IMG/VR virus record: IMGVR_UViG_3300025102_000009
Location: 1 to 30,721 of that record
Direction: 5' to 3' (one strand)
DNA: 30,721 bases
Origin: a virus
A program made the translations under genes and the position numbers. Below the pieces are notes generated by a model, which saw only the letters and a list, made by a program, of their open reading frames with translations, made no database searches and was not told where the DNA came from. The first letter of the stretch is position 1. Each line of letters begins with the position of its first letter. Positions 3,222 to 30,721 of this stretch are shown here, piece after piece.

Positions 3222-4207
3222 GTACATACCAAGAAAGCTATTGCAATATAACATCAGATCTACTATTTATTGATCCAAATCTAAGTGAATACGACGGTAA
3301 AAAAGTATTGGCTAGTAATTGGTTGAGTTCAGGAGTTTCTCATCTATTTTACTTATATAATACTGGAGATTGTAGCGGTCAAGTTTATAGGGATGGAAAA
3401 GAATTAACATCAACAACAAGTCAGCCAAGTTCAAATGACGAATATAGATATAACGCCAGTACAGATTTATTAGAATATTATAGTTCAGGAGGAAGCGCAA
3501 ATACTTTAAATAGTAGTGTGTTTGAATCTTCTAGGGATTGGGTAGAATTAAAAACTGAAGCAGTAAAAAGGGCAAGTGATTTTATTCGATCCGCTTTACC
3601 TTTTCCTATATATCCGAATAAGGGTGTAGGAACTCAGGATGCAGTTGGTAATGATTACCCTGAAATAATTGTTAGAAGTACGGCTATAATGGCGGTCGAA
3701 TCACTTGTAAGACCTTATGATGTAGAAAAAGCAGATACAATTAGATCGCAGGCTATGAATGACGAGGGAACTGGTTATTTAGATATGCTCAGGAAGGGTG
3801 AGATGACACTTTATTCAAGCGAAGGTGAATCAAAGCATAAAGGCATATTAAGAATAGTATCTGTAAATAGCAACACAACCGGTTCCATAGTTGATGTAAG
3901 AGGCAGGTCTACATATCCATGGGATATTATAAAAATAAAAATAAGTAATGGCGGTACAATAACTGCTGGAACAGCAAATACTACAGTAAAATTTGATTCC
4001 TTAGTAGGTAATGAAAATGGATTAAAGTTAGAACCTATGGCAACTGATGAGATTATAGATTGTTACTGGCAGCTAGTAGGACATGATATGTATATCAGAT
4101 TTTCTCCTGGTGTTTATGCAACTAATGATGAATGGGAGCTAGAAGTAAGTGGAGAGCTAGATCAATCTTTTTCTGCAATAAAAACTGTTAGAACAACGAG
4201 GTATTAA
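3218..4207 (+). CDS. Head-tail connector/adaptor-like protein
   Basis: The protein is 329 aa. Its central part (about residues 100-200) is helical, with the run AVKRASDFIRSALPFPIYP followed by STAIMAVESLVRPYDVEKA, like the multi-helix head completion adaptors of HK97 gp6 type. The N- and C-terminal parts are beta-rich (for example IVDVRGRSTYPWDIIKIKIS). It is longer than a minimal adaptor of about 100 aa, so extra domains are present. A GAGG ribosome site precedes ATG 3218, and its stop overlaps the tail-terminator start. The role is inferred from position just before the tail terminator and tube genes. Confidence 0.55.
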   Translation: MSTYQESYCNITSDLLFIDPNLSEYDGKKVLASNWLSSGVSHLFYLYNTGDCSGQVYRDGKELTSTTSQPSSNDEYRYNASTDLLEYYSSGGSANTLNSSVFESSRDWVELKTEAVKRASDFIRSALPFPIYPNKGVGTQDAVGNDYPEIIVRSTAIMAVESLVRPYDVEKADTIRSQAMNDEGTGYLDMLRKGEMTLYSSEGESKHKGILRIVSVNSNTTGSIVDVRGRSTYPWDIIKIKISNGGTITAGTANTTVKFDSLVGNENGLKLEPMATDEIIDCYWQLVGHDMYIRFSPGVYATNDEWELEVSGELDQSFSAIKTVRTTRY

Positions 4208-15368: not shown

Positions 15369-16155
15369 GAGATTCATAGATACTAAAATTTGGGACAAAG
15401 CTTGGTTTAGAAGATTAAGCTTAAAAAATAAATTATTTTGGATTTATTTATTAGGTAGATGTGACCACGCAGGAATTTGGGATATTGATTGGGAAGCAGC
15501 GGAATTTATGATAGGTGAAAAAATAAAAAAAGAAGAACTTCCGCAAGTGATTAAAGATAAGATGTTGTATATAGAAGGTAAGGATCAATATTTTATTCCC
15601 TCCTTTATAGAATACCAATATGGAGAGCTAAGACCTAATTCTAAACCACATATGAGTGTTATTAAAAGGCTTAATGAAAAAGGATTATATAACCCTAAAA
15701 AAAGAGTTAACTTAACCCTTAAAGATAAAGATAAAAATAAAGATAAGGTTAAAGTAAAAGTAAAAACTAAAGAACTTAGGGAATCTGAATTTAGAGTTAG
15801 ATCTCTTCGTATTGGTAAGGACTTAAAAAATATAAAAGGAAACACAATAGGCTCATTTATTGATTATTGGACTGAATCGAATATGAATGGTACGAAAATG
15901 AAGTTCGAAATGCAAAAAACCTTTGACATTAAGAGGAGATTATTGAAATGGTTTAATAATGAAAAAGAATGGACTGTTCAAAAAGAAGGAAAAGTCCCAC
16001 TTGAAGCAACTTTTAAAAAGACCCCTACTGGTCTATATAAAGCATACTGCTCTAAGTGCGGTAAAAGGGAATTGCCTAATAATAGCTGGCAATTAAAAGA
16101 GGGTAGTAACTGTTGCAGAGTGGATTACGTTCCAGAGAAATTTGAAAATGCTTAA
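15361..16155 (+). CDS. Replication initiator-like protein (lambda O / DnaD type)
   Basis: The protein is 264 aa. Residues 1-95 look like the winged-helix start of phage replication proteins (KIWDKAWFRRLSLKNKLFWI, then LLGRCDHAGIWDIDWEAAE). A Lys-alternating linker follows (about residues 121-138, coded by hexamer repeats), then a helical domain and a C-terminal zinc finger (YCSKCGKRE, then NCC). Such proteins bind the origin and load the host helicase. No helicase, primase or polymerase is encoded, so this would be the phage's main replication gene. It overlaps the HNH gene by 8 bp. Family assignment is moderate; some relatives are annotated only as hypothetical. Confidence 0.55.
   Translation: MAKRFIDTKIWDKAWFRRLSLKNKLFWIYLLGRCDHAGIWDIDWEAAEFMIGEKIKKEELPQVIKDKMLYIEGKDQYFIPSFIEYQYGELRPNSKPHMSVIKRLNEKGLYNPKKRVNLTLKDKDKNKDKVKVKVKTKELRESEFRVRSLRIGKDLKNIKGNTIGSFIDYWTESNMNGTKMKFEMQKTFDIKRRLLKWFNNEKEWTVQKEGKVPLEATFKKTPTGLYKAYCSKCGKRELPNNSWQLKEGSNCCRVDYVPEKFENA
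15721..15774 (+). repeat. Imperfect hexamer repeats in replication gene (possible origin)
   Basis: Nine successive hexamers of the type AAAGAT/AAAGTA run in frame with the Lys-x dipeptides of the protein linker. The tract is very A-rich on one strand. In lambda the origin lies inside the O gene at the same relative place, so this is a candidate origin. It may equally be just a codon-biased linker. Confidence 0.35.
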
Positions 16156-16438
16156 AGACGATAGACATATAATAGATTATATCTTAGACGCAACCGATAA
16201 TGAAAAGCAAAAAGCTCATTTTAGCCATAGGAATAAAGTAATTAGGAAACAATATAAAAAAATACCTTTGGATCAGCAGTTAAAATATTGTGCTAAATGT
16301 AAATGTTGTTGGATGATTTTAAGAAAGTATATGGATAAGAGTAGTTGGGTAAAATACCCGAAAGGTCATATTCCTACAATAGGAAAAGAAAGAGAATTAT
16401 GTAAATTATGTAAAGGAGAAAAAAATGAAGATAGTTAA
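16148..16438 (+). CDS. Cys-rich zinc-finger-like protein
   Basis: ATG 16148 is preferred to a TTG 6 bp upstream. The protein is 96 aa. A basic N-terminal half (AHFSHRNKVIRKQYKK) is followed by two Cys clusters, YCAKCKCCW and ELCKLCKGE, that could bind zinc. It overlaps dUTPase by 14 bp and carries that gene's AAGGAG in its last codons. No family is recognised. DNA binding is plausible. Confidence 0.6.
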   Translation: MLKDDRHIIDYILDATDNEKQKAHFSHRNKVIRKQYKKIPLDQQLKYCAKCKCCWMILRKYMDKSSWVKYPKGHIPTIGKERELCKLCKGEKNEDS

Positions 16439-16865
16439 AACGAGAAAAGTTAGGACCCCAGAAAGAGTAGGTAAAAATGCAGGGATAGATTTTTTTGTTC
16501 CAAGTGATTTTAGTCCAATGCTTTTAATATCTGGGGGTCGTGTAAATATACCCTCAGGAATACATGTGAAAATGCCAGATGGTTATTGTTTAATAGCTTT
16601 TAATAAAAGTGGTATAACATCCAAGTATGGTCTCCAAGTTGGTGCTTGTGTTGTGGATGAAAATTATACTGGGGAGATACATTTAAGTTTAATCAATAAC
16701 ACTTTACAAAATGTAGCTATAAATCCTGACCAAAAAATAGTACAGTTCTTAGTTCTAAAACCTAATTATGTTAATATAGAAGTCTTTGAAAAATTAAATG
16801 ATATATATAAGCTAACAGATCATTTAGAAAGAGGGTCCCAAGGTTTCGGGAGTACAGGTGAGTAA
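16425..16865 (+). CDS. dut: Deoxyuridine triphosphatase (dUTPase)
   Basis: The protein is 146 aa, the usual length of trimeric dUTPases. All five motifs are visible: AGIDFF (19-24), NKSGITSKYGL (60-70), GACVVDENYTGEIHLSL (73-89), DQKIVQF (102-108) and the P-loop-like ERGSQGFGSTG (135-145). Motif 2 has Asn-Lys in place of the common Arg before Ser-Gly. It hydrolyses dUTP to dUMP and pyrophosphate, keeping uracil out of DNA and feeding pyrimidine synthesis. It opens the nucleotide cassette (dut, DUF6378-like, ThyA-like, dCMP deaminase, AsnB-like). A strong AAAGGAG precedes the start. Confidence 0.92.
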   Translation: MKIVKTRKVRTPERVGKNAGIDFFVPSDFSPMLLISGGRVNIPSGIHVKMPDGYCLIAFNKSGITSKYGLQVGACVVDENYTGEIHLSLINNTLQNVAINPDQKIVQFLVLKPNYVNIEVFEKLNDIYKLTDHLERGSQGFGSTGE

Positions 16866-17056
16866 TGGTTTTCGAAGTTTGTAAATTTGGTACGGGAATA
16901 TCTAAAAAATGTTCTTTTTGTGGTTATTGGGAAAAGGATCTATATTGCGGGATAGCAAAAGGCGGTCTTGGAAACGTTAAGATAGATACGCTTATTAAAT
17001 GTCCCCTAAAGGATAAAAGTATAAACAAAAAAAAGAAAGCAAAAAAGGAGTATTAA
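16865..17056 (+). CDS. Small Cys-rich protein
   Basis: The protein is 63 aa. CSFCGYWEKDLYCG near the N-terminus and a later Cys (IKCPLK) suggest a zinc site. The C-terminus is Lys-rich (KSINKKKKAKKEY). It overlaps both neighbours with TAATG and carries the next gene's AAGGAG. Function is unknown. Its place inside the nucleotide cassette may be meaningful or just filler. Confidence 0.6.
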   Translation: MVFEVCKFGTGISKKCSFCGYWEKDLYCGIAKGGLGNVKIDTLIKCPLKDKSINKKKKAKKEY

Positions 17057-17358
17057 TGGATATATTAAAAAAAGCTCATGAGATTATTTATGAGAGATCT
17101 GAAGAAAAAGAAAGACAATATGGACCTATGTCTTTATGTAATAAGAAAGCTGCAGTAATAGCTACCATTCTTTGTAATAAAAAAATATCTGTAAAGGATA
17201 TATATATGATGCAAATATCATTGAAATTAGCTAGGGAAAGCCATTCCTATAAAGAAGATAATCTATTAGATTTAGTAGCTTATATTGCTGGTTATAATAA
17301 TTACGAAAATAATACTAAAATAGAAAAAAAAGATATAATAAGGTCAGAAGATGAATAA
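17056..17358 (+). CDS. DUF6378-like protein, possible nucleotide pyrophosphohydrolase
   Basis: The protein is 100 aa, all-helical. The pattern Arg-x-x-Gln-Tyr-Gly (ERQYGPM), then KAAVIATILCNKKISVKDIY, then MQISLKLARESHSYKEDNLL and DLVAYIAGY matches a phage family I know as DUF6378: R..QYG, ISxxD, K-x-A-R, DN-x-x-DxxxY. The DN-x-x-D end recalls the metal-binding helices of MazG-like dNTP pyrophosphatases. Catalysis is therefore suspected but unproven. It lies between dUTPase and the ThyA-like gene, which supports a role in dNTP handling. Confidence 0.65.
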   Translation: MDILKKAHEIIYERSEEKERQYGPMSLCNKKAAVIATILCNKKISVKDIYMMQISLKLARESHSYKEDNLLDLVAYIAGYNNYENNTKIEKKDIIRSEDE

Positions 17359-18067
17359 AGAGATTCAACAAGCATTCTCTATATTGTACTATAGTGGAAA
17401 AGAAATTAAAAGCGAAAAATGGCAAGCAGTAGAAAGTCCTGATAGTATGTTGGAAGTTTCTAATTTATTTTTCACATGCCAGATACCTGGTTCTATAGAG
17501 ATATTACATAAAGAAACAATGGCAGATCTACCGTGGTCCGAGGATCATTTTCAGGAAAGAATAGGGGGAGAACCTCTAAACCCTGGTAACCAATATAAAA
17601 ATTGGCCATATTATAGATCTAATTTAGATAATAATAGATTTAAATCCCATCAGGGGGATAAATTCAGCCATACTTACATGGAAAGATATTGGCCCCCTAA
17701 GAATAAAAAAGGCATTAGGTATAACAATGGGGATCTTTTAGATATAGTGGAAAGATTAAAAAAAGATAAATACACGAGACAGGCATATTTTTCTATATGG
17801 CACCCCGAGGATCATAGTAATAACAGTGTACGTTTACCTTGTACAATAGGTTATTGGTTTAATTACAGAGATTCTAAATTAAACTGTACGTATCATATTA
17901 GAAGTTGCGATGCAGTAAGGCATTTTAGGAATGATATATATATGACAGGTAGATTAGTACAATATATTGCTGAAAAAATAAACGTAGAGGTTGGTTCTTT
18001 ATCTATGTGGGTAGGTAGTTTCCACATTTTTAAATCTGAAAAATGGAAAATAAAACAAAAAGGTTAA
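17351..18067 (+). CDS. Divergent thymidylate synthase-family enzyme, possibly dCMP-specific
   Basis: The protein is 238 aa. Core features of the ThyA fold are present: Arg143 (TRQAYFSIWHPED), catalytic Cys164 (RLPCTIGYWF), the phosphate/dNMP motif IRSCD (183-187) and His225 (GSFHIF). The N-terminal RTGT loop of classical ThyA is absent; instead PWSEDHFQERIGGEPLNPG appears, as in a phage subfamily. Asp195 lies where E. coli ThyA has Asn177 (eight residues after the RSCD Asp, without a gap). Asn-to-Asp there is known to switch preference from dUMP to dCMP, and dCMP hydroxymethylases have Asp. It may therefore make 5-hydroxymethyl- or 5-methyl-dCMP, or still be a thymidylate synthase. It overlaps the neighbouring genes on both sides. 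Confidence 0.75.
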   Translation: MNKEIQQAFSILYYSGKEIKSEKWQAVESPDSMLEVSNLFFTCQIPGSIEILHKETMADLPWSEDHFQERIGGEPLNPGNQYKNWPYYRSNLDNNRFKSHQGDKFSHTYMERYWPPKNKKGIRYNNGDLLDIVERLKKDKYTRQAYFSIWHPEDHSNNSVRLPCTIGYWFNYRDSKLNCTYHIRSCDAVRHFRNDIYMTGRLVQYIAEKINVEVGSLSMWVGSFHIFKSEKWKIKQKG

Positions 18068-18480
18068 GTAAAGATAGTTATTTTATGGGAATGGCCATTC
18101 TTTCTTCGCAGAGAGGCACCTGTTTAAGGACTAAAGTCGGATGTGTTATTGTTTATAAAAATAGGATTAAAGCAGTAGGATATAATTCTAGCCATCCAGG
18201 AACAGAACATTGTGAGGAAGTGGGTTGTTGTATAGAAGGAGGGCATTGTATAAGGACATTACATGCGGAGGAAGCAGCTGTATTGAATTTAGAAAAAAGA
18301 TTTAATAAGGGTTTAGAGGCTTACATAACACATGAACCATGCTTACATTGCCATAAAATATTAGCAGCAGCAGGTGTAAATAAGGTTTATTATTTAAATT
18401 CTTATGGTAATTTCAGCAATAAAGAAAAAAGTATTAAAGACACTTTAGGATGTGTTTTAGTTAAAACAAAGGAGGAATAG
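18043..18480 (+). CDS. Deoxycytidylate (dCMP) deaminase
   Basis: The protein is 145 aa. The zinc-dependent deaminase motifs are His74-Ala-Glu76 (RTLHAEEAAV) and Pro99-Cys100-x2-Cys103 (HEPCLHCHK). A Cys/His-rich insertion (EHCEEVGCCIEGGHC) before the active site is typical of dCMP deaminases of the T4 type. RTKVGCVIV is the usual N-terminal strand. It converts dCMP to dUMP. It overlaps the ThyA-like gene by 25 bp, so the two probably act on one pool. If the ThyA-like enzyme uses dCMP, this deaminase would set the balance between dCMP and dUMP, as in T4. Confidence 0.88.
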   Translation: MENKTKRLSKDSYFMGMAILSSQRGTCLRTKVGCVIVYKNRIKAVGYNSSHPGTEHCEEVGCCIEGGHCIRTLHAEEAAVLNLEKRFNKGLEAYITHEPCLHCHKILAAAGVNKVYYLNSYGNFSNKEKSIKDTLGCVLVKTKEE

Positions 18481-18483
18481 GGA

Positions 18484-19803
18484 ATGTGTGGGATCTTGAT
18501 ATATAATAAAGACTCATTACCAGGGATAAAGCTAAATCATAGGGGAATAATAAGTAGTTCTACTAGGAAAGAGGATTGGGTATTAGAGCATCGTTTGTTA
18601 CCTATACAAACAAATAACGAAAAGGGATTACAACCCATTCAATTAAAAGGGGATAGGTATCTATTATTCAATGGGGAGATCTTTAATTTCTATAAATTTG
18701 GGGATTATACTAATGACACTTCCTATTTAAAAGACTTTTTTGACGACTTAGAATGGAGGAAGAATATTAATGAAATAAACAGATGGTGTGGTTTTTGGTC
18801 CATAGTTATATATGAGGAGAAGGGTTTTACGGCCTTTACGGACCCGTTAGGGAAGAAACAGCTATATTATAATGAATATATGATAAGCAGTGAAATTAAA
18901 CCGTTATTAAGGAATAATCCTTTATTAGGGACCCCTAAGTTATTACAACCTACGGGTAATACCCCTTTTCTTGGTGTACGTAGGATAAAACCTAATAGGA
19001 TATATAGATTACAACCACATCTTAAGACAAGGGTGTTTGATGTTTATATAACTGGTATGAAATATTATAATATATATAAAAACGAAAGTAAAGAATCTTT
19101 ATACCAAAGGATGCAAAATTCTACACAAGATAGGTTGATTAATAAGATGGATGGTATTACTATGTTTGTAAGTGGGGGTCTAGATTCTACTATAATATTA
19201 CACCATCTTTTAGAGTCCCCCATCCCTAATAATAAGATAGAATTATTAACAATAGAAAACGGCGAGGAAGAATATATAGAGATAATTGAGAAATATTATA
19301 ATGTAAGTGTCCGAAGAATACCTATAGAAGAGAATTTGTACAGAGAAGCAATTCTAAGTTATGAGCATTATCTGGATTATGGTAGTTTACTGCCCCAATA
19401 TTGTTTATTCAAGAACTCTAGTAATACAGTAGTATTAACAGGGGATGGTGCAGATGAATTATTTAGTGGATACAATAGAGCACAATTATGGGACACTCAA
19501 AAATACGATGTAAGAACGGAATTACCGTATTATCACCATATTCGATTAGATAGGTGCAGTATGGTACATACAAAAGAAGCTAGGAACCCTTTTCTATCCA
19601 AGGACGTAATATCTTATGCTATGAATTGTGCATATAAAAAAAGGAAAGGGAAAAAGGTATTAAAAGATAATTACATGGGTTATATACCTAAACAAATAAT
19701 AGAAAGAAAAAAACTACCGCTAAGGGATGGTAATAAGGATCTTTGTAGGCAAAAAGCATATAGAGAATTTGTTAATATATTCAAAGGGTATAATAACCCT
19801 TAA
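18484..19803 (+). CDS. Asparagine synthetase B-like glutamine amidotransferase
   Basis: The protein is 439 aa, shorter than E. coli AsnB (about 554), but both domains are complete. Class II glutaminase: Cys2 nucleophile (MCGILIY), Arg37 (EHRLLPI), Asn63-Gly64-Glu65 (FNGEIFN). Synthetase: ATP-pyrophosphatase loop SGGLDS (230-235), GDGADELFSGY (320-330), and a C-terminal GKKVLK ... IIERKKLPLRDG segment like the Lys/Arg motif of AsnB. Such enzymes move ammonia from Gln to an adenylated carboxylate, usually Asp. AGGAGG lies 8 nt before ATG. As the last gene of the nucleotide operon it may supply asparagine, or amidate a modified nucleotide; the second is speculation. Confidence 0.85.
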   Translation: MCGILIYNKDSLPGIKLNHRGIISSSTRKEDWVLEHRLLPIQTNNEKGLQPIQLKGDRYLLFNGEIFNFYKFGDYTNDTSYLKDFFDDLEWRKNINEINRWCGFWSIVIYEEKGFTAFTDPLGKKQLYYNEYMISSEIKPLLRNNPLLGTPKLLQPTGNTPFLGVRRIKPNRIYRLQPHLKTRVFDVYITGMKYYNIYKNESKESLYQRMQNSTQDRLINKMDGITMFVSGGLDSTIILHHLLESPIPNNKIELLTIENGEEEYIEIIEKYYNVSVRRIPIEENLYREAILSYEHYLDYGSLLPQYCLFKNSSNTVVLTGDGADELFSGYNRAQLWDTQKYDVRTELPYYHHIRLDRCSMVHTKEARNPFLSKDVISYAMNCAYKKRKGKKVLKDNYMGYIPKQIIERKKLPLRDGNKDLCRQKAYREFVNIFKGYNNP

Positions 19804-26898: not shown

Positions 26899-29844
26899 AT
26901 GCAGAGTTCTATGATAAAATCTATTACTGAGGACTTTGGTAATGGCGGTACAATAGATGGTGATTTAACTATATCAGGAGACCTAACTGTAAGTGGCGGT
27001 GGTTCACTATCTTTTGATGAGATAGTACAAGGCACATCTACAATTAAAGTTACAGACACTAACGCTTTTTTAGTTGAAAAAGCAGATGGAACAGATGTTT
27101 TTGTTGTGGATACGACTAACACTGAGGTAACAATTTCAGGTTCACTTGGAGTAGGTGCAAGTCCAGTATCAAGCTTTCCAGCTCAAAACGTAACTATAGA
27201 AGGTGCAACTGCTGGATTAGTATTAAGAGACACAACTGGAAGTAATCAAGCAACACAATTTTTTACTTTGTATTCTAGTAATGGCGATATTATTGGAATG
27301 TTTGATGATTCAAAAAGTTTAAAGTTTGGTCATGCTGATGATGTAGTAGGTACTAATTATGAAGATGTTTTAGTTATTACTAGTGATAATAGAGTAGGCA
27401 TAGGAACTTCTTCTCCATCAGTATTAGCTCATTTTTCATCTTCTTCTGCTAATCAAGTTAGAATTGAAAGAACTACTGGTGGTAATACTGCTTTACATTA
27501 TAAAAATACTGGCGAAGATTGGTATTCAGGTGTTACTTCTACTAGTAGTTTTTCTATATCTACAAATGCAGATATAGCTTCAGGTACAGATTTTGTAATA
27601 ACTAACTCAGGTAATGTAGGTATAGGAACTGCTTCTCCCCAATCTAGCCTCGAAATCGAACTAGGTGGAGATACAGGCACATACTTTGAGGCTGGTGGAA
27701 ATGGAGCAAGTTCAAGTGAATCAGATGCAAGACATTTAAAAATGACAGCATCAACAACTACTAATGCTGGTGATACACATAGTATTAATTGCGAATCTTC
27801 ATCAGGAGTATTGAAATTACAGACCGCTGGAACAGATAGATTAACCATAAATTCTACATCAGCCACATTTGCTGGTGATGTAACTGTTTCTAAAAGTGGT
27901 AATGCTTTTCTCAATCTTACTTCTACTGGTGGTGGAGCAAGGATAAAATTAACTGGTCAGGCAAACGAGACTACCAATGGATTATTGTTTTATGAGGCAA
28001 GTAATCAAAGAGGTCAGATTAATTATAATCACTCAGACCAAAAGATGGAATTTAAAACTGGAGACAGTACGACTCTTGCTCTTACTTTAGACTCCAGCCA
28101 AGATGCTATATTTGCCAATACTGCAATTTTTCCAAATAATAAAAGTATTAATTTTTTAAATACAAGTGGAGCTGAAAAAGCAATAATTTCATTCGACAGC
28201 TCAAATATTACTAAAATTGGAGATGCAAGTAGTAGTGGTACATTACAATTAAATTCAGGTGTCGCCACATTTGCTAATGCAGTAATGATAAATAGTTCCT
28301 CTGCAAACTACGCTGATTTGACAGTTGGGGGAACTGGTGATATAGTTGCTTTACGAGCCAGTAGTGGAACTGCTGGATTCACAATGTACGAAGCTGGAAC
28401 TGGTAGATTTAATATGACTACTTTAAATGGTTCAAATGGTATTGCTTTTAAAGTTCCAACAACTACTGCGCTAACTATTGATAGTTCTGCTGATGCCACA
28501 TTTGCTAATAATTTAACTGTTAATGGTGATACTCTTTCACTTGTTAAATCTAATAATAATGCTTTTTTAAAAATAGAATCTACTGCTGGTGGCGAAGCCT
28601 TTATTGATATGAGGTCAACTACAAATAAAACAAATGTAATTAGATTTTTTGAAGGAACTACTCAAAAAGGTTCAGTCGTTTATTCTCATGCATCTCAATC
28701 TCTAACATTTAACACAGGAGATAGTGCAACATCTAAATTAGTTCTTGATGATAACTCACGAATCTCACTAAGTAATAATGATAGTGGTTCTAATAATACT
28801 ATATTTGGTAAAAGTGCATCTCCAAGTCAAGCTGGTAGTAATAACACTATTGTGGGAGAAAATACAGCTCTAGCTATGGATGGTGGAGAATCTCATAACA
28901 CTGTTATTGGTAATAATGCTATGAGAGGAGCAGATGAAGGTGCTAGTGGTAGTATAGATTTTAATGTAGCAATAGGTAGTAGTGCCTTATGGGGTGGAGT
29001 ACTTTCAGGCACAAACCAAGTAACAGGAAATATAGCTATTGGCTATCAAGCATTATATAAAACTGATGACACTAATCCAAGTATTGGTCAAATTGCCATA
29101 GGATACCAATCTCTTAAAGGCTTGACTTCAGGTGAAAGAAATACAGCAGTTGGGTTTGAGTCTCTTAAATCAAATACAATAGGTGATAAAAATACAGCAG
29201 TAGGTTATCAAGCACTTGAATCATTTAATGCAGATACAGATGGACATGGAAATAATACTGCAATTGGTCATAATGCGATGCAAGGAAATAACACAGGAAC
29301 TGATAATGTTGCAATAGGTCATATGAGTGCTTTTTCTGGTACAAATAATATGACTTCTGGAGATAATAATACTTTTATTGGTTCGCTATCAACCCCAAGC
29401 TCTGGAACACCTACAAATCAAACAGTAATAGGTTATAATGCAACAGGGCAAGCAGACAACTCAGTAACTCTAGGGAATGCAGATGTAACTGCTGTTTATA
29501 TGGCTCAAGATGGTGATGCTGTAATGTATGCTGATGGTACAATTAACACTTCAGATAAAAGATTAAAAGAAAATATATCTGATTCTGATTTAGGATTAGC
29601 ATTTATAAACGAATTAAGACCAGTTAGCTACAATCTCAAAAGTAAAAAACATTCAGCAAAATTAAAATATGGTATTGTTGCACAAGAAGTGAAAGAAGTA
29701 TTAAAAGAAAGTGGAAATGAAGATTTTGCTGGTATTACAGATAAAGGCGAATATTTAGGTGCTGATTATGTGCAATTCATTGCACCATTAATTAAGGCAG
29801 TACAAGAGTTAACTGCAAAAGTAAAAGAATTAGAAAGTAAATAA
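26899..29844 (+). CDS. Large fibre protein with S74 intramolecular chaperone
   Basis: The protein is 981 aa. The N-terminal part has DGDLTISGDLTVSGGGSLSF and repeats of the type LTIDSSADATFANNLTVNG. A 70-residue beta-module occurs twice (around 27880-28110 and 28535-28765), with a third related stretch between. From about residue 640, some fifteen repeats of the type Asn-Thr-Ala-Ile-Gly-Tyr-Gln-Ala-Leu follow, a trimeric beta-roll shaft. Residues 884-981 are a peptidase S74 domain (TSDKRLKENI, FINELRPVSYNLKS, KYGIVAQEV) that folds the trimer and then cuts itself off, normally before Ser885. It is a receptor-binding or virion surface fibre. Its place next to the capsid genes leaves open head or tail attachment. 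Confidence 0.88.
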   Translation: MQSSMIKSITEDFGNGGTIDGDLTISGDLTVSGGGSLSFDEIVQGTSTIKVTDTNAFLVEKADGTDVFVVDTTNTEVTISGSLGVGASPVSSFPAQNVTIEGATAGLVLRDTTGSNQATQFFTLYSSNGDIIGMFDDSKSLKFGHADDVVGTNYEDVLVITSDNRVGIGTSSPSVLAHFSSSSANQVRIERTTGGNTALHYKNTGEDWYSGVTSTSSFSISTNADIASGTDFVITNSGNVGIGTASPQSSLEIELGGDTGTYFEAGGNGASSSESDARHLKMTASTTTNAGDTHSINCESSSGVLKLQTAGTDRLTINSTSATFAGDVTVSKSGNAFLNLTSTGGGARIKLTGQANETTNGLLFYEASNQRGQINYNHSDQKMEFKTGDSTTLALTLDSSQDAIFANTAIFPNNKSINFLNTSGAEKAIISFDSSNITKIGDASSSGTLQLNSGVATFANAVMINSSSANYADLTVGGTGDIVALRASSGTAGFTMYEAGTGRFNMTTLNGSNGIAFKVPTTTALTIDSSADATFANNLTVNGDTLSLVKSNNNAFLKIESTAGGEAFIDMRSTTNKTNVIRFFEGTTQKGSVVYSHASQSLTFNTGDSATSKLVLDDNSRISLSNNDSGSNNTIFGKSASPSQAGSNNTIVGENTALAMDGGESHNTVIGNNAMRGADEGASGSIDFNVAIGSSALWGGVLSGTNQVTGNIAIGYQALYKTDDTNPSIGQIAIGYQSLKGLTSGERNTAVGFESLKSNTIGDKNTAVGYQALESFNADTDGHGNNTAIGHNAMQGNNTGTDNVAIGHMSAFSGTNNMTSGDNNTFIGSLSTPSSGTPTNQTVIGYNATGQADNSVTLGNADVTAVYMAQDGDAVMYADGTINTSDKRLKENISDSDLGLAFINELRPVSYNLKSKKHSAKLKYGIVAQEVKEVLKESGNEDFAGITDKGEYLGADYVQFIAPLIKAVQELTAKVKELESK

Positions 29845-30634: not shown

Positions 30635-30721
30635 AAAGACTGCTAGAAGCTATCGCGCTGATGTTATCGATGACAACTTTAGTATACATCTTAATATTAA
30701 GTGGTTATTTCAAATATTATG
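30627..30721 (+). CDS. 5' part of join-spanning membrane/coiled-coil protein
   Basis: ATG 30627 has AAAGGA just upstream and overlaps the end of the lipoprotein gene. The frame reads MSEKTARSYRADVIDDNFSI and runs into the membrane segment that continues at base 35 (base 1 if the repeat is collapsed at 30687). The 3' part, to 257, completes 105 aa. See the entry at 1-257 for domain layout and role. The frame being unbroken through the join confirms the circle. Confidence 0.8.
   Translation, partial: MSEKTARSYRADVIDDNFSIHLNIKWLFQIL
30688..30721. repeat. Direct terminal repeat, right copy
   Basis: Identical to bases 1-34; see the left copy. One copy should be dropped when the genome is drawn as a circle. 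Confidence 0.9.

Follow-up and report, generated by a model that had tools for sequence, protein, structure and literature searches.

A 3.4-kb cassette in the virus record IMG/VR IMGVR_UViG_3300025102_000009 joins genes of pyrimidine nucleotide metabolism to a gene for an AsnB-like glutamine amidotransferase, and raises the question of whether this amidotransferase supplies asparagine during infection or takes part in the modification of a DNA base. The window, by which we mean the whole 30,721-nucleotide stretch analysed (GC content 0.33), carries the cassette at positions 16425–19803, with all genes head to tail on the plus strand in the order dUTPase, 63-aa Cys-rich protein, DUF6378 protein, ThyA-like enzyme, dCMP deaminase and AsnB-like enzyme; neighbouring genes overlap or sit 3 bases apart. 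A sequence-only reading of this DNA had described five of these genes as nearly contiguous, and the coordinates and family matches agree with it, except that it missed the open reading frame (ORF) of the 63-aa protein. Our best reading is that the cassette is real and conserved, that base modification is favoured over asparagine supply, and that the genes encode a variant of phage cytosine hypermodification.

Predicted pyrimidine specificity of the ThyA-like enzyme

The ThyA-like enzyme (17351–18067, 238 aa) matches the thymidylate synthase (TS) family PF00303 with an E-value of 9.1e-14. In an alignment with E. coli ThyA and T4 gp42, it retains the catalytic Cys, Tyr94, Arg126, Arg166, Ser167, Asp169 and His207. 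Specifically, Cys164 (codon 17840–17842), which corresponds to Cys146 of E. coli TS, is the predicted catalytic nucleophile, while Asp195 (17933–17935) occupies the pyrimidine-specificity position held by Asn177 in E. coli TS. Asp in place of Asn177, combined with Cys146 and with Thr or Ser at position 147, is found in all 43 AsnB-linked sequences and in all 15 other relatives; the window enzyme has Thr where TS has His147. In addition, the enzyme lacks the TS C-terminal tail and, in the alignment, stops 13 residues past His225. A profile of the ThyA-like family searched against the PDB gave the CMP 5-hydroxymethylase MilA as the best match and L. casei entry 1njc as the second, the latter being the Asn229Asp mutant constructed to accept dCMP.

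The exchange of Asn for Asp at TS position 177 is by itself enough to change the preference from dUMP to dCMP, and in metagenomes Asp177 marks the ThyA homologues found on contigs whose cytosine is modified (PMC8670742). Both T4 gp42 and MilA carry Asp at the cytosine-specificity position (PMC5175136). On the basis of Asp195, the ThyA-like enzyme should modify dCMP rather than merely set nucleotide pools, the role assigned to it by the sequence-only reading; the remark that no hypermodification enzyme is seen must likewise be revised, as the Asp177 enzyme is itself predicted to modify C5 of dCMP. An ordinary thymidine supply, in which the ThyA-like enzyme makes dTMP and is fed by the dUTPase and the dCMP deaminase, would accord with the frequent occurrence in phages of the dUTPase, dCMP deaminase and thymidylate synthase trio and with the name thymidylate synthase given by both Pfam and PHROG. 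We nevertheless regard it as very improbable, given Asp at position 177, the missing tail, Thr for His147 and the redirection of TS to dCMP by the Asn-to-Asp change alone (PMC8670742).

The chemistry at C5 is less certain to follow that of T4. Arg161 (17831–17833), invariant in 58/58 aligned ThyA-like sequences, stands in the place of T4 Asp145, which the T4 dCMP hydroxymethylase requires for water activation (PMC6400193). For this reason we name the window enzyme a predicted dCMP C5 one-carbon transferase and not a T4-type hydroxymethylase. Arg161 and His191 (E. coli Gly173) were each considered as markers of AsnB association, and both were rejected, as relatives without AsnB carry them too. 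As a separate observation, the ThyA-like relatives at loci L004–L013, 52–58% identical, have no AsnB neighbour, and the next genes at L004 encode a C5-methyltransferase and a primase.

The AsnB-like enzyme and its family

The last gene of the cassette (18484–19803), preceded by the strong ribosome-binding sequence AAAGGAGGAATAGGGA, encodes a 439-aa AsnB-like glutamine amidotransferase/ATP-pyrophosphatase with matches to Asn_synthase (2.2e-25) and GATase_7 (1e-7). The sequence-only reading had judged this enzyme complete, and the alignment bears this out: the predicted N-terminal glutaminase nucleophile Cys2 (18487–18489) is invariant, the SGGLDS ATP-pyrophosphatase loop (19171–19188) and the GDGADE motif of the synthetase site (19441–19458) are intact, and Asn63, NGEIFN, Asp78 and the synthetase-site Lys and Arg are conserved. 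A DYGS loop (19375–19386) replaces TIRA of E. coli AsnB; the aspartate-site TxR of the E. coli enzyme reads DxG in the window.

The family to which this enzyme belongs appears confined to viruses. No close homologue was found in 50,697 phage records, and a megablast of the cassette region against phages gave no match. A single-sequence scan of viral contigs returned just one near-identical contig, and an alignment-based scan was needed to find relatives, which it did in 377 or more viral contigs. Identity to the best cellular relatives is 23–29%, and in the tree the 71 viral sequences make up a single clade with support of 1.0, a long stem and zero cellular members. Judged by its motifs and phylogeny, the AsnB-like enzyme belongs to an intact, separate, monophyletic virus-only family.

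Could the enzyme nonetheless be an auxiliary asparagine synthetase that feeds the infection and stands beside the pyrimidine genes as part of a shared early operon? Among characterised proteins, asparagine synthetases (human ASNS and E. coli AsnB) are closest to it in both sequence and fold, and the glutaminase Cys, the PP-loop and GDGADE are all in place. The altered aspartate site was tried as proof against asparagine synthesis and rejected: the nearest cellular homologues lack TxR too, so its loss is not diagnostic and does not settle the substrate. On the other side stand the long-stemmed virus-only clade, a score of 131.7 bits against the asparagine synthase model TIGR01536, for which the curated equivalog cut-off is 267.1, and a link to the ThyA-like gene that persists at a separation of ~100 kb and across phage genomes ranging from 30 to 430 kb. 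We consider asparagine supply unlikely and keep it as a rival.

An AlphaFold model of the enzyme (pLDDT 88) matched the folds of asparagine synthetase, beta-lactam synthetase, the hydroxyamidotransferase TsnB9 and carbapenam synthetase, and GMP synthetase was also among the matches. The last of these lends something to the idea that the AsnB-like enzyme aminates a ring carbonyl of the pyrimidine (C4 of dUMP or a 5-substituted dUMP, or C2 of dCMP) in the way that XMP is aminated by GMP synthetase, and thereby makes or edits a cytosine base; ATP-pyrophosphatase-fold enzymes such as GuaA, TilS and MnmA adenylate ring carbonyls. The nearest fold relatives, however, all activate carboxylates. Furthermore, the ThyA-like enzyme is predicted to prefer cytosine already, and the dCMP deaminase of the cassette runs in the opposite direction. 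Ring amination is in our view decidedly unlikely.

The glutaminase site differs between members of the family. The Arg expected to bind the glutamine carboxylate is kept in 77/77 cellular sequences and in 26/26 viral sequences without a ThyA-like neighbour, whereas only 10 of the 44 ThyA-adjacent members retain it; in the latter the column holds mostly Ser or Leu (window 18589–18600, AsnB residues 36–39). In the window enzyme, an Arg lies one residue ahead of the expected position. These sequence differences suggest that the ammonia donor may have changed in the ThyA-adjacent members.

Linkage of the two genes across phages

In loci collected with the ThyA-like enzyme as seed, the DUF6378, ThyA-like and AsnB-like genes share one order, although the terminases are only 24–29% identical to that of the window. 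The gene order of the cassette is thus conserved well past chance and recurs in many contigs with distant terminases. The neighbourhood survey suggested in the sequence-only reading gave a comparable picture from the AsnB side. Of the 57 non-redundant AsnB loci (<90% identical), 35 contain a ThyA-like gene no more than 6 kb away and 21 contain only an immediately upstream P-loop gene; the remaining locus is on a contig that starts beside AsnB. The P-loop gene is weakly thymidylate-kinase-like, that is, nucleotide-kinase-like, and it occurs together with both the AsnB-like and the ThyA-like gene in six loci (L042, L063, L064, L066, L091 and L095).

These six loci led to the prediction that large AsnB-bearing phages encode a ThyA-like gene elsewhere in the genome. 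A first look found such a gene in 2/22 AsnB-bearing records, the only two longer than 200 kb. In a new sample, all ten AsnB-bearing contigs >200 kb, a count that includes those two records, encode a ThyA-like gene of 45–48% identity lying far from AsnB, and all ten encode a dCMP deaminase; among nine unrelated large phages, none has a ThyA-like match above 32% identity. The Arg/Cys/Asp pattern was re-read in at least nine of the ten ThyA-like genes, the frame at L295 being interrupted. There, on a 430-kb contig (L295:5003–6916), the ThyA-like reading frame runs for 637 aa, and the query aligns to it in two halves that meet around residues 157–167, beside the catalytic Cys; the in-frame insertion at the active site is probably an intein.

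These counts have to be read with phylogeny in mind. The association counts ignore kinship in the tree and are inflated by related contigs, and many of the large phages share neighbourhoods, so that the ten are not independent events, yet they represent at least three backgrounds. AsnB distances correlate with ThyA-like distances (r 0.74, Mantel p 0.0005) and also with terminase distances (r 0.81, 14 loci), which demonstrates joint inheritance and no more. The pair is carried by phages with genomes between 30 and 430 kb in size, and its co-occurrence in very different phages is better explained by a so far undescribed amidated cytosine in their DNA than by asparagine synthesis. The sequence-only reading had left base modification and an asparagine gene side by side; the virus-only AsnB family paired with an Asp177 ThyA (35/57 and 10/10) tips the choice towards modification.

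The genes that accompany AsnB belong largely to nucleotide metabolism. MazG pyrophosphohydrolase is found at 34/90 viral AsnB loci and DUF6378 at 39/90, and the other companions include dimeric dUTPase, dUTPase, dCMP deaminase and a DNA amino-methyltransferase homologue. The nucleotide enzymes among them fit a pathway that acts ahead of polymerisation, as in T4. At ten AsnB loci a C5-methyltransferase homologue is also present, a divergent one in which GHPEC or GHTEC takes the place of the usual PPC; such genes stand next to the ThyA-like and AsnB genes or in the interval separating them (L033:4873–5991, L040:4880–6016, L042:8093–9283 and others). Separately, an MGS-like domain protein and a calcineurin-like phosphoesterase precede the ThyA-like gene at L286 (4694–5068 and 5068–5721) and are kept in several large-phage genomes.

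The remaining genes of the cassette were assigned as follows. The dUTPase (16425–16865, 146 aa) is of the trimeric type (PF00692, E-value 9.5e-16; phrog_135, 2.7e-25). The 63-aa Cys-rich protein (16865–17056) overlaps each neighbour by 1 base and matches no family above cut-off; a second small Cys-rich protein without a known family lies just before the cassette (16142–16438). The DUF6378 protein (17056–17358, 100 aa; PF19905, 1.8e-10) is modelled as all-helical (pLDDT 92) with no fold neighbour in the PDB, and its candidacy as a MazG-type dCTPase was rejected, there being no profile match to the cluster MazG or to dimeric dUTPase. The dCMP deaminase (18043–18480, 145 aa; PF00383, 1e-20) has the HAE and PCxxC zinc motifs in its translation, and it matches TIGR02571 ComEB with an E-value of 1.3e-33, yet under the curated cut-off.

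A proposed route to modified cytosine and its relation to known systems

The cassette probably encodes a phage cytosine hypermodification pathway that works mainly at the nucleotide level, by C5 one-carbon transfer to dCMP followed by Gln- and ATP-dependent amidation. Sequence and statistics establish the domains, the catalytic motifs, the Asp at the specificity position, the virus-only AsnB family and its linkage to the ThyA-like gene. In the order of steps and products that we infer, the dUTPase and the dCMP deaminase would rebalance the pyrimidine pool, and the ThyA-like enzyme, with Asp195, would place a one-carbon unit taken from methylene-tetrahydrofolate on C5 of dCMP; the product would be 5-hydroxymethyl-dCMP or a dCMP with a related 5-substituted methyl. 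The AsnB-like enzyme would draw ammonia from glutamine and spend ATP, split to AMP and PPi, on activating this nucleotide or, after incorporation, the modified cytosine in DNA, which would become an amide or amine. The modified nucleotide would then be phosphorylated and incorporated into phage DNA by a host polymerase, and would protect that DNA. A host polymerase is proposed because none is seen in the window genome: in agreement with the sequence-only reading, no DNA polymerase was matched among the larger window ORFs scanned against PHROGs. The genome length of 30.7 kb is supported as well, since bases 1–34 are identical to bases 30688–30721, a 34-bp terminal direct repeat that makes the contig look like a closed, complete assembly. 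The window also contains a 24-nt repeat, GTAATGGCGGTACAATAACTGCTG, at 3945–3968, 26939–26962 and 27611–27634, the latter two copies within the tail spike gene.

Several points weigh against this pathway. Hydroxymethyl-dCMP has no carboxylate for the AsnB-like enzyme to amidate. With Arg161 invariant where T4 needs Asp145, the product of the ThyA-like enzyme may not be a hydroxymethyl compound at all. The glutamine-carboxylate Arg is gone in 34/44 ThyA-adjacent AsnB members and shifted in the window, which makes the ammonia source less certain, and AsnB is absent from the neighbourhood of many ThyA-like relatives. As acceptor, the AsnB-like enzyme could use a carboxylate on the ThyA-like product, which Arg161 would allow, a ring carbonyl, or a group made by an intervening further enzyme. 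In one specific and quite unlikely proposal, Arg161 would allow a carboxylate-bearing nucleophile, glycine for example, to attack dCMP at its C5-methylene and give a 5-(carboxymethylaminomethyl)-type dCMP, which the AsnB-like enzyme would amidate at the expense of Gln and ATP, the neighbouring kinase of the larger phages would phosphorylate, and a polymerase would insert as an undescribed amidated cytosine.

A carboxylated pyrimidine had already been suggested as the ammonia acceptor in the sequence-only reading, and the suggestion is plausible in the light of the CmoA/CmoX/CmoY pathway, in which 5-carboxymethylcytosine is made in DNA and glycine is then ligated to it by the AsnB homologue CmoY (PMC12783734). 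A glutaminase-bearing cluster of CmoY-like ligases exists as well, from which soluble protein was not obtained (PMC12783734), and some AsnB loci carry the GHPEC/GHTEC C5-methyltransferase homologue. That the window uses a pathway of this very type, with carboxymethylation of cytosine C5 in DNA ahead of an AsnB-like amide ligase, is nevertheless the least likely of the explanations weighed here. CmoA, the Cx-SAM synthase, was found in 0/24 records other than the window (23 with the AsnB-like family; controls detected), and a CmoX-type C5-methyltransferase in 0/18 large AsnB-bearing records, again other than the window. A homologue of the cluster methyltransferase, the sole C5-methyltransferase query used there, was not found in the window. 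The constant partner of AsnB is instead the ThyA-like gene.

Hypermodification of their DNA is one of the major means by which phages counter defence, and it supplies enzymes for DNA chemistry. The majority of known pathways start from a 5-hydroxymethyl handle, to which sugars, a carbamoyl group or amino acids are added, or from the recently described 5-carboxymethyl handle. If our interpretation is right, the pair of ThyA and AsnB homologues would constitute a further route, present in hundreds of viral contigs, that joins one-carbon chemistry to glutamine-dependent amidation, and it would explain why 4% of a 30.7-kb genome is given to an amidotransferase. A published phage AsnB/ThyA pair was not found in the open-licence literature, where only the CmoY paper (PMC12783734) surfaced.

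Each known system shares part of this arrangement. E. coli AsnB and human ASNS have the same two-domain plan, Cys nucleophile, SGGLDS, G(E/D)G(A/S)DE and synthetase-site Lys and Arg, whereas the window enzyme is shorter (439 versus 554 aa), falls under the curated cut-off, has DxG for TxR, and belongs to a family in which the glutamine Arg is often lost. MilA, the best PDB profile match of the ThyA-like family, likewise uses an Asp (Asp186) for cytosine; it is a ribonucleotide enzyme with Ala176 and Lys133, whereas the window family retains the Ser and Arg of deoxynucleotide enzymes. CmoY of phage S-B43 and the uncharacterised glutaminase-bearing cluster share with the window an AsnB homologue, a phage cytosine-modification setting and proposed ATP-dependent amide formation with Gln-derived ammonia, but the partners of CmoY are Cx-SAM and a DNA methyltransferase, in contrast to a ThyA-like enzyme predicted to act on dCMP. 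T4 gp42 shares with the window ThyA-like enzyme the TS fold, the Cys nucleophile, the cytosine Asp (T4 Asp179), the FRND string, the absence of the TS C-terminal tail and a place alongside other phage-encoded nucleotide enzymes. The two differ at T4 Asp145 (Arg161 in the window) and at a T4 Gly (His191 in the window), and the modifying partner is a glucosyltransferase in T4 and an AsnB-like enzyme in the window. Finally, the 5-hydroxymethylcytosine carbamoyltransferase phages (PMC8670742) combine an Asp177 ThyA homologue, a dCMP deaminase, a phosphoribosyl-ATP-pyrophosphohydrolase-type protein and a tailoring enzyme, as the cassette and its relatives do, except that the tailoring is carried out by a carbamoyltransferase using carbamoyl phosphate rather than by a Gln- and ATP-dependent amidotransferase.

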